Shown: one piece after another, positions 5,716 to 48,997 of the stretch
How positions within the stretch are numbered: the first letter of the stretch is position 1
Layout of the letters: each line of letters begins with the position of its first letter
Source: a virus
Virus record (IMG/VR): IMGVR_UViG_3300047564_004641
Location: 51,334-115,333 of that record
Direction: 5' to 3' (one strand)
DNA length: 64,000 nt
Notes under the pieces: model-generated
What the model was told of the DNA's origin: nothing
What the model saw: the letters and a program-made list of their open reading frames with translations, nothing else
Databases searched by the model: none
Program-made: the position numbers and the translations under genes

Positions 5716-5747
5716 TAGGTTTTCTCCTTAGTTTTTTAGGTTAAAGA

Positions 5748-5834
5748 GCGTTCCTTCAGTCGGCGTTTGCGTCGGTTTCCCGATGAACGTTCCGTTCCGC
5801 GTCGGCTTACTTCCGTCCCATAGGGATGAACGTA
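5748..5834 (-). promoter_or_regulatory. Glutamine riboswitch (Downstream-peptide/glnA class)
   Basis: On the minus strand the conserved blocks occur in the right order: CGTTCATC (5825-5832), GACGGAAGTA (5808-5817), GCCGACTGAAGGAACGC ending at 5748. These are the shared core of the glnA and Downstream-peptide RNA motifs, both glutamine aptamers. The end block pairs with the first CGTTC to close the junction. A second CGTTCATC copy lies at 5782-5789. The element sits between a sigma70 promoter and a 45-aa gene, matching the Downstream-peptide arrangement. Confidence 0.85.
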
Positions 5835-20677: not shown

Positions 20678-20841
20678 TTTTCGTTAAAGGGTAAGTAAAA
20701 GTCCAGGGGGTTCTGGATGTTACAATATTCCCCACACCACCCTCCAGTGTGGGTATGAGAGACGTGATTTACCCTCCCATAGGTCTCGGTTAACGGGAGC
20801 ACAAAGATTAAGAACCTGTTACATTTCTTAACCCGTTGATG

Positions 20842-44191: not shown

Positions 44192-44323
44192 TTAATTCAG
44201 GCTCGCCACCAATTCTTTAACTGGAAATTGGAAACCAGGCGGAGAAAGAATTCCCCATCCGCACCACCAATTCTTGAGAGAAATTGGAAACTCAGAAAGA
44301 CATTTTTTTAGAAAGTCTCTCAA
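44192..44323 (-). CDS. 43-aa Trp/Pro-rich protein with TTG start, tentative
   Basis: TTG start at 44321-44323 inside the end of the preceding gene. The frame reads RDFLKKCLSEFPISLKNWW then CGWGILSPPGFQFPVKELVA, which looks like real protein, but there is no ATG and the ribosome site is weak. It may be a remnant domain. Confidence 0.35.
   Translation of the reverse strand: MRDFLKKCLSEFPISLKNWWCGWGILSPPGFQFPVKELVASLN
44206..44290 (-). repeat. Two direct repeats that are also small hairpins
   Basis: CCACCAATTCTT...GAAATTGGAAA occurs at 44206-44234 and 44264-44290. Each copy folds as CCAATT/AATTGG. They lie in the tentative 43-aa frame, just before a terminator. Confidence 0.6.
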
Positions 44324-45352: not shown

Positions 45353-45425
45353 TGCTGGTTGTCGGGATCGAACCGACCTATCTTGCCTTATGAGGGCAGT
45401 GCTTTCGCCAGAGAGCTAAACCAGC
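45353..45425 (-). tRNA. tRNA with CAU anticodon (Met or lysidine-type Ile)
   Basis: Acceptor GCTGGTT/AACCAGC, anticodon loop CTCATAA, T-arm GTCGG-TTCGATC-CCGAC. One mismatch at the base of the anticodon stem. The first base pair is G-C, so not initiator. Its 5' end overlaps the end of the HNH gene. Confidence 0.85.
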
Positions 45426-45835
45426 GTTTGTAAAAACTCTCCCCAACTATCACCATAATGTAATATATGATGGCAGTTATGACAAAGAAGATCACATTTA
45501 TCTACTTCTTCTTTGATAGTGTCCCATTTCCTATTAGCAAAAGATCTTCCATCAAGTTTTAATTCTTTTTGAGAAGGATCTCTATGATGAAAGCATAGAG
45601 TTGCTGGCCTATCTTCACCACAAGTTTGACACTTAGCACCTTTATATTGAAGTGCTTTCCATTTATTGGAATATGCACGTTCTTTTTGTTCAGTATAAGT
45701 GTTTCTGTTCATAACACAAGGATCATTTCTATATCTCCATTTCATTCGGCAAGTTTCATTACAATAGAGTTTTGCTCTTCCACCTTTTCGTGGATGTTGT
45801 TCAACTTCTTTACCGCAGGATTTACAGATAATCAT
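45416..45835 (-). CDS. HNH endonuclease beside tRNA genes
   Basis: 139 aa from MIICKSCGKEVEQ. Two zinc-knuckle pairs (CKSCGKEV, KCQTCGED), then FHHRDPSQKELKLDG and CDLLCHNCHHILHYGD, an HNH nuclease domain. It ends within the tRNA at 45416-45425. Such free-standing homing endonucleases insert next to tRNAs in T4-like phages. Late box at 45862-45869. Confidence 0.8.
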   Translation of the reverse strand: MIICKSCGKEVEQHPRKGGRAKLYCNETCRMKWRYRNDPCVMNRNTYTEQKERAYSNKWKALQYKGAKCQTCGEDRPATLCFHHRDPSQKELKLDGRSFANRKWDTIKEEVDKCDLLCHNCHHILHYGDSWGEFLQTLV

Positions 45836-45869: not shown

Positions 45870-45885
45870 ATAAATGTATGTTGGA

Positions 45886-46032
45886 GGAGAGATCCATACA
45901 GTGAAACAGAAGCGCAATACAAGTCATAGGTCTGTTTCGCACCGACTTGCAGCTGGGGTTTTTCACTCTCCTTTTTTCAAGTAGGTTTTCTGTTGCTTAT
46001 CCTAAAAAACCCACTACAAAATGGATAAGCAA
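45886..46032 (-). ncRNA. Candidate structured RNA with two pseudoknot-like folds
   Basis: No open frame. First fold: TTGCTTATCC (45993-46002) with GGATAAGCAA (46023-46032), 10 bp, and loop bases 46006-46015 paired with 45980-45989, 10 bp, which is perfect only on the minus strand with one G-U. Second fold: GAAACAGA (45903-45910)/TCTGTTTC (45931-45938) interleaved with CAAGTC (45920-45925)/GACTTG (45944-45949), inside an outer GGAGAG/CTCTCC (45886-45891, 45966-45971). It follows tRNA-Ile in the same transcript. T4 too encodes two stable RNAs of unknown function in its tRNA cluster. Confidence 0.55.
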
Positions 46033-46034
46033 AG

Positions 46035-46106
46035 TAGGACTGCTGAGACTTGAACTCAGTTCACACCGTTATAAGCAGTGGGCCTTAACCCATAGGCGAC
46101 AGTCCC
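46035..46106 (-). tRNA. tRNA-Ile(UAU)
   Basis: Acceptor GGGACTG/CAGTCCT, anticodon stem CACTG/CGGTG with loop CTTATAA (anticodon UAU), T-arm CTGAG-TTCAAGT-CTCAG. Reads AUA without needing lysidine modification. Own promoter at 46121-46149. Confidence 0.85.
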
Positions 46107-46120
46107 TTAAGACCAGATCT

Positions 46121-46149
46121 ATAGTAGCGGACCTGGAACGCTCTGTCAA
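46121..46149 (-). promoter_or_regulatory. sigma70-type promoter of tRNA-Ile
   Basis: Minus strand TTGACA (46144-46149), 17-bp spacer, TACTAT (46121-46126), 15 bp ahead of the tRNA. Confidence 0.7.
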
Positions 46150-47594: not shown

Positions 47595-48029
47595 TCACTG
47601 TAAATGTGATCTTAATTGCCATACAAACTTACCGTGAGATTCCATTAAATCTTGAACTAGATTAGCAGTTGCATAAGACTTTTGTTGCTCTGCTTCTTCC
47701 GAAATCTCTACCATCAACTCACAAAACTTAGTGTTATTATCCAGAAGTTCTTGAAGCATATCTTTTGCTCCAGATGAACTTGCTGCCTCTTTAATTTGTG
47801 TAACCTCAAGCATTCTTGAAAGAGAACTTAATGGTTTTACATTTAAGTATCTCATATGTTCGGAGAGTCTGTCAATCTCTTCAAACATCGTTTCATACTG
47901 TCCGCCAAAGAGTTGATGTAGTTGAGTAAAATCTTCTCCAACTACATTCCAGTGAAACGCCCAAGTTTTATGAAATAAAACAAAAAGTGATGACTGAGCA
48001 TCACTTAAGAGTTTAAACAGTTTTTCCAT
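47595..48029 (-). CDS. dps: Dps-like ferritin-family protein
   Basis: 144 aa from MEKLFKLLSDAQ. FHKTWAFHWNVVGEDFTQLHQLF and QYETMFEEIDRLSEHMRYL give the H-x-W-x-x-H and D/E-x-x-x-E-H ligands of the Dps ferroxidase. Dps binds DNA and detoxifies iron plus peroxide. Last-part segment is helical as expected. In a cyanophage this may protect DNA from photo-oxidative damage. Late boxes at 48043-48054. Confidence 0.85.
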   Translation of the reverse strand: MEKLFKLLSDAQSSLFVLFHKTWAFHWNVVGEDFTQLHQLFGGQYETMFEEIDRLSEHMRYLNVKPLSSLSRMLEVTQIKEAASSSGAKDMLQELLDNNTKFCELMVEISEEAEQQKSYATANLVQDLMESHGKFVWQLRSHLQ

Positions 48030-48042
48030 TATACTCTTTTTG

Positions 48043-48054
48043 TATTTATTTATC
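48043..48054 (-). promoter_or_regulatory. Overlapping late promoter boxes
   Basis: AATAAATA (48043-48050) and GATAAATA (48047-48054) on the minus strand, 14-25 bp ahead of the Dps-like gene and within the spacer after tRNA-Val. Confidence 0.6.
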
Positions 48055-48059
48055 AAGTA

Positions 48060-48211: not shown

Positions 48212-48215
48212 TGTG

Positions 48216-48308
48216 GTAGGTGTTGGGGACTTTACCTATGTCCCCACTCTTTACATTCACCCAAGCACCAGTTTAAACATCGACCTGGGGAGAGGTTTTG
48301 GCACCTAC
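48216..48308 (-). ncRNA. tRNA-sized structured element
   Basis: Closed by GTAGGTG (48216-48222)/CACCTAC (48302-48308) with an inner GGGGAC/GTCCCC hairpin. 93 nt like a class II tRNA, but no TTC-type T-loop. Unknown. Confidence 0.35.
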
Positions 48309-48890: not shown

Positions 48891-48898
48891 ATATAAGT

Positions 48899-48963
48899 TG
48901 GAAACGCATAAGACAGTGCCTTATGTATATTACCAGAAGTGTTAGAGGACTTCCGAACCAACA
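48899..48963 (-). ncRNA. Small three-way-junction RNA element
   Basis: Closed by GTTGG/CCAAC, with arms GAAGT/ACTTC and CATAAG/CTTATG. It is the first transcribed element after the promoter at 48969-48997 and just before tRNA-Arg. Not a standard tRNA. Confidence 0.35.
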
Positions 48964-48968
48964 AAACA

Positions 48969-48997
48969 ATCATACCAGGTTAGGATTTGATCGTCAA
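48969..48997 (-). promoter_or_regulatory. sigma70-type promoter of the distal tRNA group
   Basis: Minus strand TTGACG (48992-48997), 17-bp spacer, TATGAT (48969-48974). Confidence 0.7.

Follow-up and report, generated by a model that had tools for sequence, protein, structure and literature searches.

The window analysed here is a stretch of 64,000 nt from the viral record IMGVR_UViG_3300047564_004641 (full record about 115 kb). It contains 10 tRNA genes, all on the minus strand, and within this array lies the subject of the present report, an RNA gene of about 150 nt that belongs to a previously undescribed RNA family with two pseudoknots. The nearest annotated relatives around the locus are Synechococcus T4-like phages. 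The gene fills the gap between the 3' end of tRNA-Ile and the start of an HNH insert, and its ends (45884-46033) reach slightly past the positions 45886-46032 given in a preliminary description of the locus. The fold comprises a 5' H-type pseudoknot (PK1), a linker, and a 7-bp stem; within this stem lies a second pseudoknot (PK2), whose UAU bulge is invariant.

A blastn search retrieved similar DNA from one phage record, S-CREM1, where it occupies the gap between tRNA-Asp and tRNA-Glu; its helices differ in sequence and retain the layout. Further copies were collected by pattern scans of IMG/VR in which the conserved loops were fixed and different parts were left free. The RNA was found in S-CREM1 and about 15 distinct sequences of uncultured viral contigs, always in tRNA arrays. 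Fourteen distinct sequences of the W lineage were aligned over the full length, and the 3' domain was aligned for 16 sequences, among them S-CREM1 and L006, which constitute the C lineage. Whole-record model searches gave exactly one match per positive record. Models R1 and R2, applied to about 150 further cyanophage loci, returned known copies and partial-match variants only, and there was no model match in 20 other cyanophage records, S-SRM01, and DSL-LC03. Several candidates were discarded: chance matches in coding DNA (9 of the 15 contigs of one pattern scan, both new contigs of another, and most of a third), 22 genome matches to the PK1 word, also attributed to chance, and a weak model match in L143 that precedes a signal-peptide-like reading frame.

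The RNA, its parts, and the adjacent features are given below; the 3' strands of the stems and the downstream strand of the PK2 helix were placed by covariation analysis of the homologues.

45884..46033, minus strand: whole RNA gene, about 150 nt (188.8 bits with covariance model R2; ends placed from the neighbouring tRNA ends and the promoters of homologues)
46023..46032, minus strand: PK1 stem S1, 5' strand (TTGCTTATCC); two pairs with both sides changed in the W lineage, and comparison of S-CREM1 with L006 by hand adds three
45993..46002, minus strand: PK1 stem S1, 3' strand (GGATAAGCAA)
46006..46015, minus strand: PK1 stem S2, 5' strand (AGTGGGTTTT); invariant in the W lineage (partly search bias), CCAGTTA/TAACTGG instead in S-CREM1
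45980..45989, minus strand: PK1 stem S2, 3' strand (AAAACCTACT), holding the G-U partner
45966..45972, minus strand: 7-bp closing stem, 5' strand (AGGAGAG); outer two positions AU/GC/GU and GC/AU, S-CREM1 GGGAGGG/CCCTCCC
45885..45891, minus strand: 7-bp closing stem, 3' strand (CTCTCCT)
45944..45950, minus strand: PK2 hairpin lower stem, 5' strand (GCAAGTC); 4 of 14 sequences carry CG-to-UA double changes
45919..45925, minus strand: PK2 hairpin lower stem, 3' strand (GACTTGT)
45941..45943, minus strand: PK2 3-bp upper helix, 5' strand (GGT); both sides changed in all three pairs
45929..45931, minus strand: PK2 3-bp upper helix, 3' strand (ACC)
45926..45928, minus strand: UAU bulge, invariant in 16 of 16 distinct sequences
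45932..45938, minus strand: PK2 pseudoknot helix, loop strand (GAAACAG); double changes at three pairs in the W lineage, four with the C lineage added
45903..45909, minus strand: PK2 pseudoknot helix, downstream strand (CTGTTTC)
46034..46106, minus strand: tRNA-Ile(TAT), directly upstream of the RNA (ARAGORN/Rfam)
45416..45835, minus strand: HNH-endonuclease-like gene, an insert that separates the RNA from tRNA-Met and does not belong to the RNA
46121..46149, minus strand: candidate promoter TTGACA-17-TACTAT upstream of tRNA-Ile (consensus match only)

This promoter presumably transcribes tRNA-Ile and the RNA together. The HNH-like gene has 95% identity to an S-SRM01 gene annotated as HNH endonuclease and no Pfam match; it is followed by tRNA-Met (45353-45425).

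The minus strand is the sense strand of the RNA, because in this orientation G-U pairing accounts for about 35 paired cells of the homologues, which would be A.C on the plus strand. The crossing 10-bp helices noticed earlier at 45980-46032 were found on this strand (10 bp across at least 10 bp), the second of them carrying a G-U pair in this orientation only, and the further crossing pair is present at 45903-45950 as 6-7 bp across 7-8 bp. The fold tested for covariation included both pseudoknots, the 7-bp stem, and the 3-bp helix detected by RNAalifold. Over 44 pairs in 14 sequences, 96.6% of the cells were paired and 12 pairs had changed on both sides, a result reached in none of 500 shuffles. 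Sliding the pairing partners abolished the covariation signal. The shuffle tests ignore relatedness, a weakness from which the slide control and the replacement of helices between lineages are free. The PK2 pseudoknot helix GAAACAG/CTGTTTC is replaced by GAAGCAG/CTGCTTC in L032, GAAACCT/AGGTTTC in L053, and GGAGTAG/CTACTTC in S-CREM1. For PK1 stem S1, direct reading gave ACGTCATCC/GGAATGACGT in S-CREM1 (one mismatch), ACATTCTTC/GAAGAATGT in L006, and TCCTTCAC/GTGAAGGA in L119. Stem S2 is invariant in the W lineage and hence shows no covariation there, its support being the CCAGTTA/TAACTGG replacement in the other lineage. One pattern scan was selected on part of PK1 and is biased in this respect; copies from scans without that selection show the same PK1.

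A single sequence gives weak proof of such a fold, since the window holds 10 crossing 9x9 pairs (overlapping placements counted separately), although any such pair arose in only 2 of 2000 dinucleotide shuffles of the region; single-strand folding energies were only mildly unusual (z of -1.6 for the minus strand and -2.5 for the plus strand). The covariance analysis of homologues suggested in the preliminary description did yield compensatory changes, whose absence would have counted against it, and the structured RNA with interleaved helices that it proposed beside tRNA-Ile is supported. As judged from the aligned homologues, the conserved fold is kept by compensatory mutations and indicates a working RNA, not chance. 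The tight 3-nt link across the first stem, also pointed out earlier, exists in the window sequence and is relaxed in homologues: the outermost S1 pair and the last S2 pair are each kept in only 5 of 14 sequences, so that a 9-bp stem is crossed by about 5 nt.

What the 7-bp stem encloses is exchangeable. In L039, L044, L051, and L052 (W lineage), the same PK1 stands before another, unrelated insert, likewise enclosed by a stem and carrying UUUUAAA at its apex. A structure descriptor scan recovered L119, in which an S-CREM1-type PK1 precedes a GGGAGGG/CCCTCCC stem enclosing another UUUUAAA hairpin; thus, each lineage is seen with either insert. Although an anticodon-like arm of 5 bp and 7 nt can be drawn for the UUUUAAA hairpin, RNAfold prefers a 7-bp stem with a triloop, which makes a tRNA-like reading tentative. 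In L041 (412-560), L048, and L055, a deletion fuses PK1 to tRNA-Leu(TAA) without a proper 5' acceptor strand, and ARAGORN still calls the tRNA. These loci were initially read as PK1 serving tRNA-Leu, an idea ruled out by the loss of the tRNA's 5' acceptor strand in the same deletion.

The borders of the RNA coincide with those of its neighbours. At the Ile/Met site (window, L007, L009, L032, L037, L040, L042, L050, and L056), PK1 begins right where tRNA-Ile ends. The other site (L010, L038, L039, L044, L045, L046, L051, and L052) has a TTGACA-17-TATAAT/TATGAT promoter at a constant offset, with the predicted start at the first bases of PK1; in L038 the -35 element was read by eye as TTGGCA. 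Where a tRNA follows directly, it begins about 2-6 nt past the 7-bp stem. From these positions, the borders appear to be cleavage or transcription start sites. The flanking tRNA pairs include Ile/Met, Arg/Gly, Leu/Gly, Ala/Gly, and Asp/Glu, and the next gene after the RNA is tRNA-Met, tRNA-Gly, tRNA-Glu, or an HNH-like gene. Only the window lineage, L008, and L054 have the HNH-like gene next to the RNA; most homologues are without it. The lack of a fixed downstream gene and the single copy per record are as expected of a trans-acting RNA.

With moderate confidence, the locus is interpreted as an independent gene for a non-coding RNA, residing in cyanophage tRNA arrays; its product would be an excised, trans-acting scaffold presenting an exchangeable motif. 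The RNA would be transcribed along with the tRNAs or from its own promoter and cut free as the neighbouring tRNAs mature, with a tRNA 3' end or transcription start in front and a tRNA 5' end behind. PK1 would form a stable 5' cap, the 7-bp stem would present the recognition motif, and the RNA would act in trans; for release by tRNA maturation and trans action taken by themselves, we lean slightly towards their being correct. The leading guess about the target, possible but rather doubtful, is a host RNA-binding defence protein, e.g., an RNA-regulated toxin or nuclease, which the RNA would engage as a decoy or by mimicking an antitoxin; the guess is drawn by analogy with abiF RNA and pseudo-ToxI and implies no membership in either group. 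Gaps of the arrays examined hold abiF RNA, transfer-messenger RNA (tmRNA)-like RNA, manA RNA, and a second undescribed RNA; it is possible that viruses of this type keep several undescribed RNAs among their tRNAs, of which the double-pseudoknot RNA would be one. Still more tentatively, cyanophage tRNA arrays could be counter-defence RNA arrays, in which modular decoy RNAs, each consisting of a 5' cap and a stem with exchangeable bait, occupy tRNA slots beside tRNAs that replace cleaved host tRNAs; the double-pseudoknot RNA would be one of them, its bait being swapped as host defences change.

Several observations weigh against the interpretation as a free-standing, trans-acting RNA. The core pattern was absent from 84,980 prokaryote species genomes, i.e., no cognate host RNA was seen, and antitoxin mimicry at the sequence level is therefore weakened. 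The deletion derivatives L041, L048, and L055 retain PK1 alone, so the RNA is dispensable. No terminator was found in the window or at L045, and therefore the RNA at promoter sites could equally be a 5' leader.

Among the alternatives, the most probable, though still unlikely, is that the RNA acts in cis as a leader of the tRNA transcript or as an element in its processing, in which PK1 protects the precursor 5' end and the 7-bp stem spaces or guides cleavage at the next tRNA. It accords with the position of the RNA at the head of the tRNA-Gly transcript at promoter sites, with PK1 at the predicted start, with the 2-6 nt to the next tRNA, and with the PK1 retained before tRNA-Leu in the deletion derivatives. 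However, related phages lack the RNA and have tRNA-Ile and tRNA-Met nearly touching, the RNA is internal and not leading at the Ile/Met site, and its loops, UAU bulge, and PK2 core are conserved beyond the needs of a spacer. Quite improbable is a translation-linked RNA, reduced tmRNA-like or tRNA-like, acting on the ribosome or tRNA enzymes. The array location, the 7-bp acceptor-like stem, the 3' ACCA past that stem in S-CREM1 and L006, and the tmRNA-like RNA of neighbouring arrays speak for it, whereas a tag frame, T arm, D arm, and any tRNA or tmRNA model match are missing and the insert is wholly replaceable; the base past the stem is either A or C, and W-lineage sequences lack CCA, which leaves the tRNA-like acceptor idea weak.

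The preliminary description considered a switch as likely as a classical pseudoknot, with a competing AGTGAAA/TTTCACT helix. This helix is indeed present in the window and formable in the W-lineage sequences (98% of cells), but it shows no double changes and is lost in S-CREM1 and L006, while both pseudoknots covary or persist through changed pairs. Moreover, no conserved gene lies downstream, usually a tRNA, and a riboswitch or two-state switch controlling the next gene is accordingly considered very improbable. An RNA of an HNH homing element (intron, omega-RNA, or endonuclease leader) would explain the HNH-like gene directly downstream in the window, L008, and L054, but is contradicted by the many copies without an adjacent HNH gene, by S-SRM01, which has a close HNH homologue and no such RNA, and by the failure of group I, HEARO, or other Rfam families to match; hardly any credence is left for it. 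Finally, crossing 9-bp helices do arise elsewhere in the window, as chance inverted repeats without RNA function would, but compensatory changes occur in all helices except PK1 S2, itself wholly replaced between lineages, and this explanation is refuted with almost no residual probability.

Other elements were recorded in the window and in related arrays. In the window, a second unannotated structured RNA (48214-48308, minus strand; GTAGGTG...CACCTAC, about 95 nt) lies in the tRNA-Asn to tRNA-His gap and is conserved in at least nine other cyanophage sequences, with a few RNAalifold double changes in an alignment that includes one unrelated row. At about 48895-48985 (minus strand), a promoter-like TTGACG-17-TATGAT is followed by a compact three-stem RNA closed by GTTGG/CCAAC, directly before tRNA-Arg(TCT). 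The array region also holds a Ferritin/Dps-like gene (47595-48056, minus strand; PF00210, E 9.9e-22), and known cyanophage RNAs occur on the minus strand of the window: wcaG (44195-44295), PhotoRC-II (20717-20811), and a glutamine riboswitch (5745-5834). A permuted tmRNA-like gene missed by ARAGORN is located between tRNA-Gln and tRNA-Arg in L054 (3174-3387) and also in L123 and L164, scoring 48-51 bits with cyano_tmRNA and 39-40 bits with tmRNA_permuted, both below threshold. abiF RNA, preceded by a promoter of its own, separates a tRNA from tRNA-Arg(TCT) in L040 (9966-10002) and L054 (1954-1990), with similar gaps in L090, L126, L148, L150, L182, L210, and L213. manA RNA of L052 (10546-10753) lies between tRNA-Gly and tRNA-Asn and not before a protein gene, unlike its proposed cis role. 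A tRNA of 88-92 nt that is called as Ile(TAT) and has a long variable arm of class-II-like type was found in L007, L037, L040, L041, L050, L143, and others; in L032 it adjoins a tRNA-Ile(TAT) of normal length.

The RNA is of the general kind of structured RNAs of phage tRNA arrays, lying among tRNAs with a covarying fold and no coding, in line with the non-coding character originally assumed. No Rfam 15 family matched it at the gathering threshold, and nothing credible appeared at E up to 10; ARAGORN and Rfam detected the flanking tRNAs only, and the tRNA, tmRNA, and group I models, together with HEARO and other Rfam families, gave no match to the RNA, as anticipated for an unknown RNA. It contains no T arm, D arm, tag frame, or ToxI-like tandem pseudoknot repeats. 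No recognised toxin gene adjoins it, the neighbours being tRNAs or the HNH-like gene without a Pfam match (a dedicated ToxN model was not run). A constant place before one gene class, as for riboswitches and leaders, was not seen, since the next gene varies, nor was a constant nuclease association, as for HNH-associated RNAs and introns. A resemblance between the 3' end (TGGATCTCTCCT) and that of 16S rRNA was dropped, because the stem covaries away from it. The S-CREM1 paper names only abiF, wcaG, manA, and glnA RNAs besides tRNAs and missed this RNA (PMC9964418). A conserved family without an Rfam entry is thus available in the cultured pair S-CREM1 / Synechococcus CB0101 and is directly testable. 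To judge from the exchangeable insert and from the established abiF antitoxin motif of related arrays, phage tRNA arrays may keep structured effector RNAs in store as well, which offers a testable view of the purpose of some array gaps.

Compared with known systems, GOLLD and ROOL are likewise structured, non-coding, pseudoknotted RNAs in or beside phage tRNA arrays, of unknown function (PMC12286853), but they measure from about 660 to more than 800 nt and form RNA cages, whereas the present RNA, at about 150 nt, has an unrelated fold and does not match their family profiles. manA RNA (RF01745), proposed as cis-regulatory (PMC2864571), is also pseudoknotted and cyanophage-borne, with one copy between tRNA-Gly and tRNA-Asn (L052), but has about 200 nt and another topology, and has no match in this RNA. 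The permuted two-piece tmRNA of cyanobacteria shares the array location, acceptor-like stem, and pseudoknots; the present RNA differs in having neither a tag frame nor a tRNA-like core, and no match was obtained. The likeness to ToxI and phage pseudo-ToxI lies in the H-type pseudoknot and concerns the working principle only (PMC3475682): ToxI consists of 36-nt pseudoknots repeated in tandem next to a toxin gene, and phage PhiTE counters ToxIN with a pseudoknot RNA mimic, a phage copy that can decoy in trans (PMC3475682). The motif and 5' module of abiF RNA (RF03085) are unrelated in sequence, and no abiF match was found in this RNA; what the two share is the tRNA slot, an own promoter, and a 5' hairpin followed by a motif that a 6-7-bp stem closes. 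In C. difficile, the abiF-bearing RNA RCd22 binds its toxin directly and thereby neutralises it, both in cis and in trans (PMC12373285).
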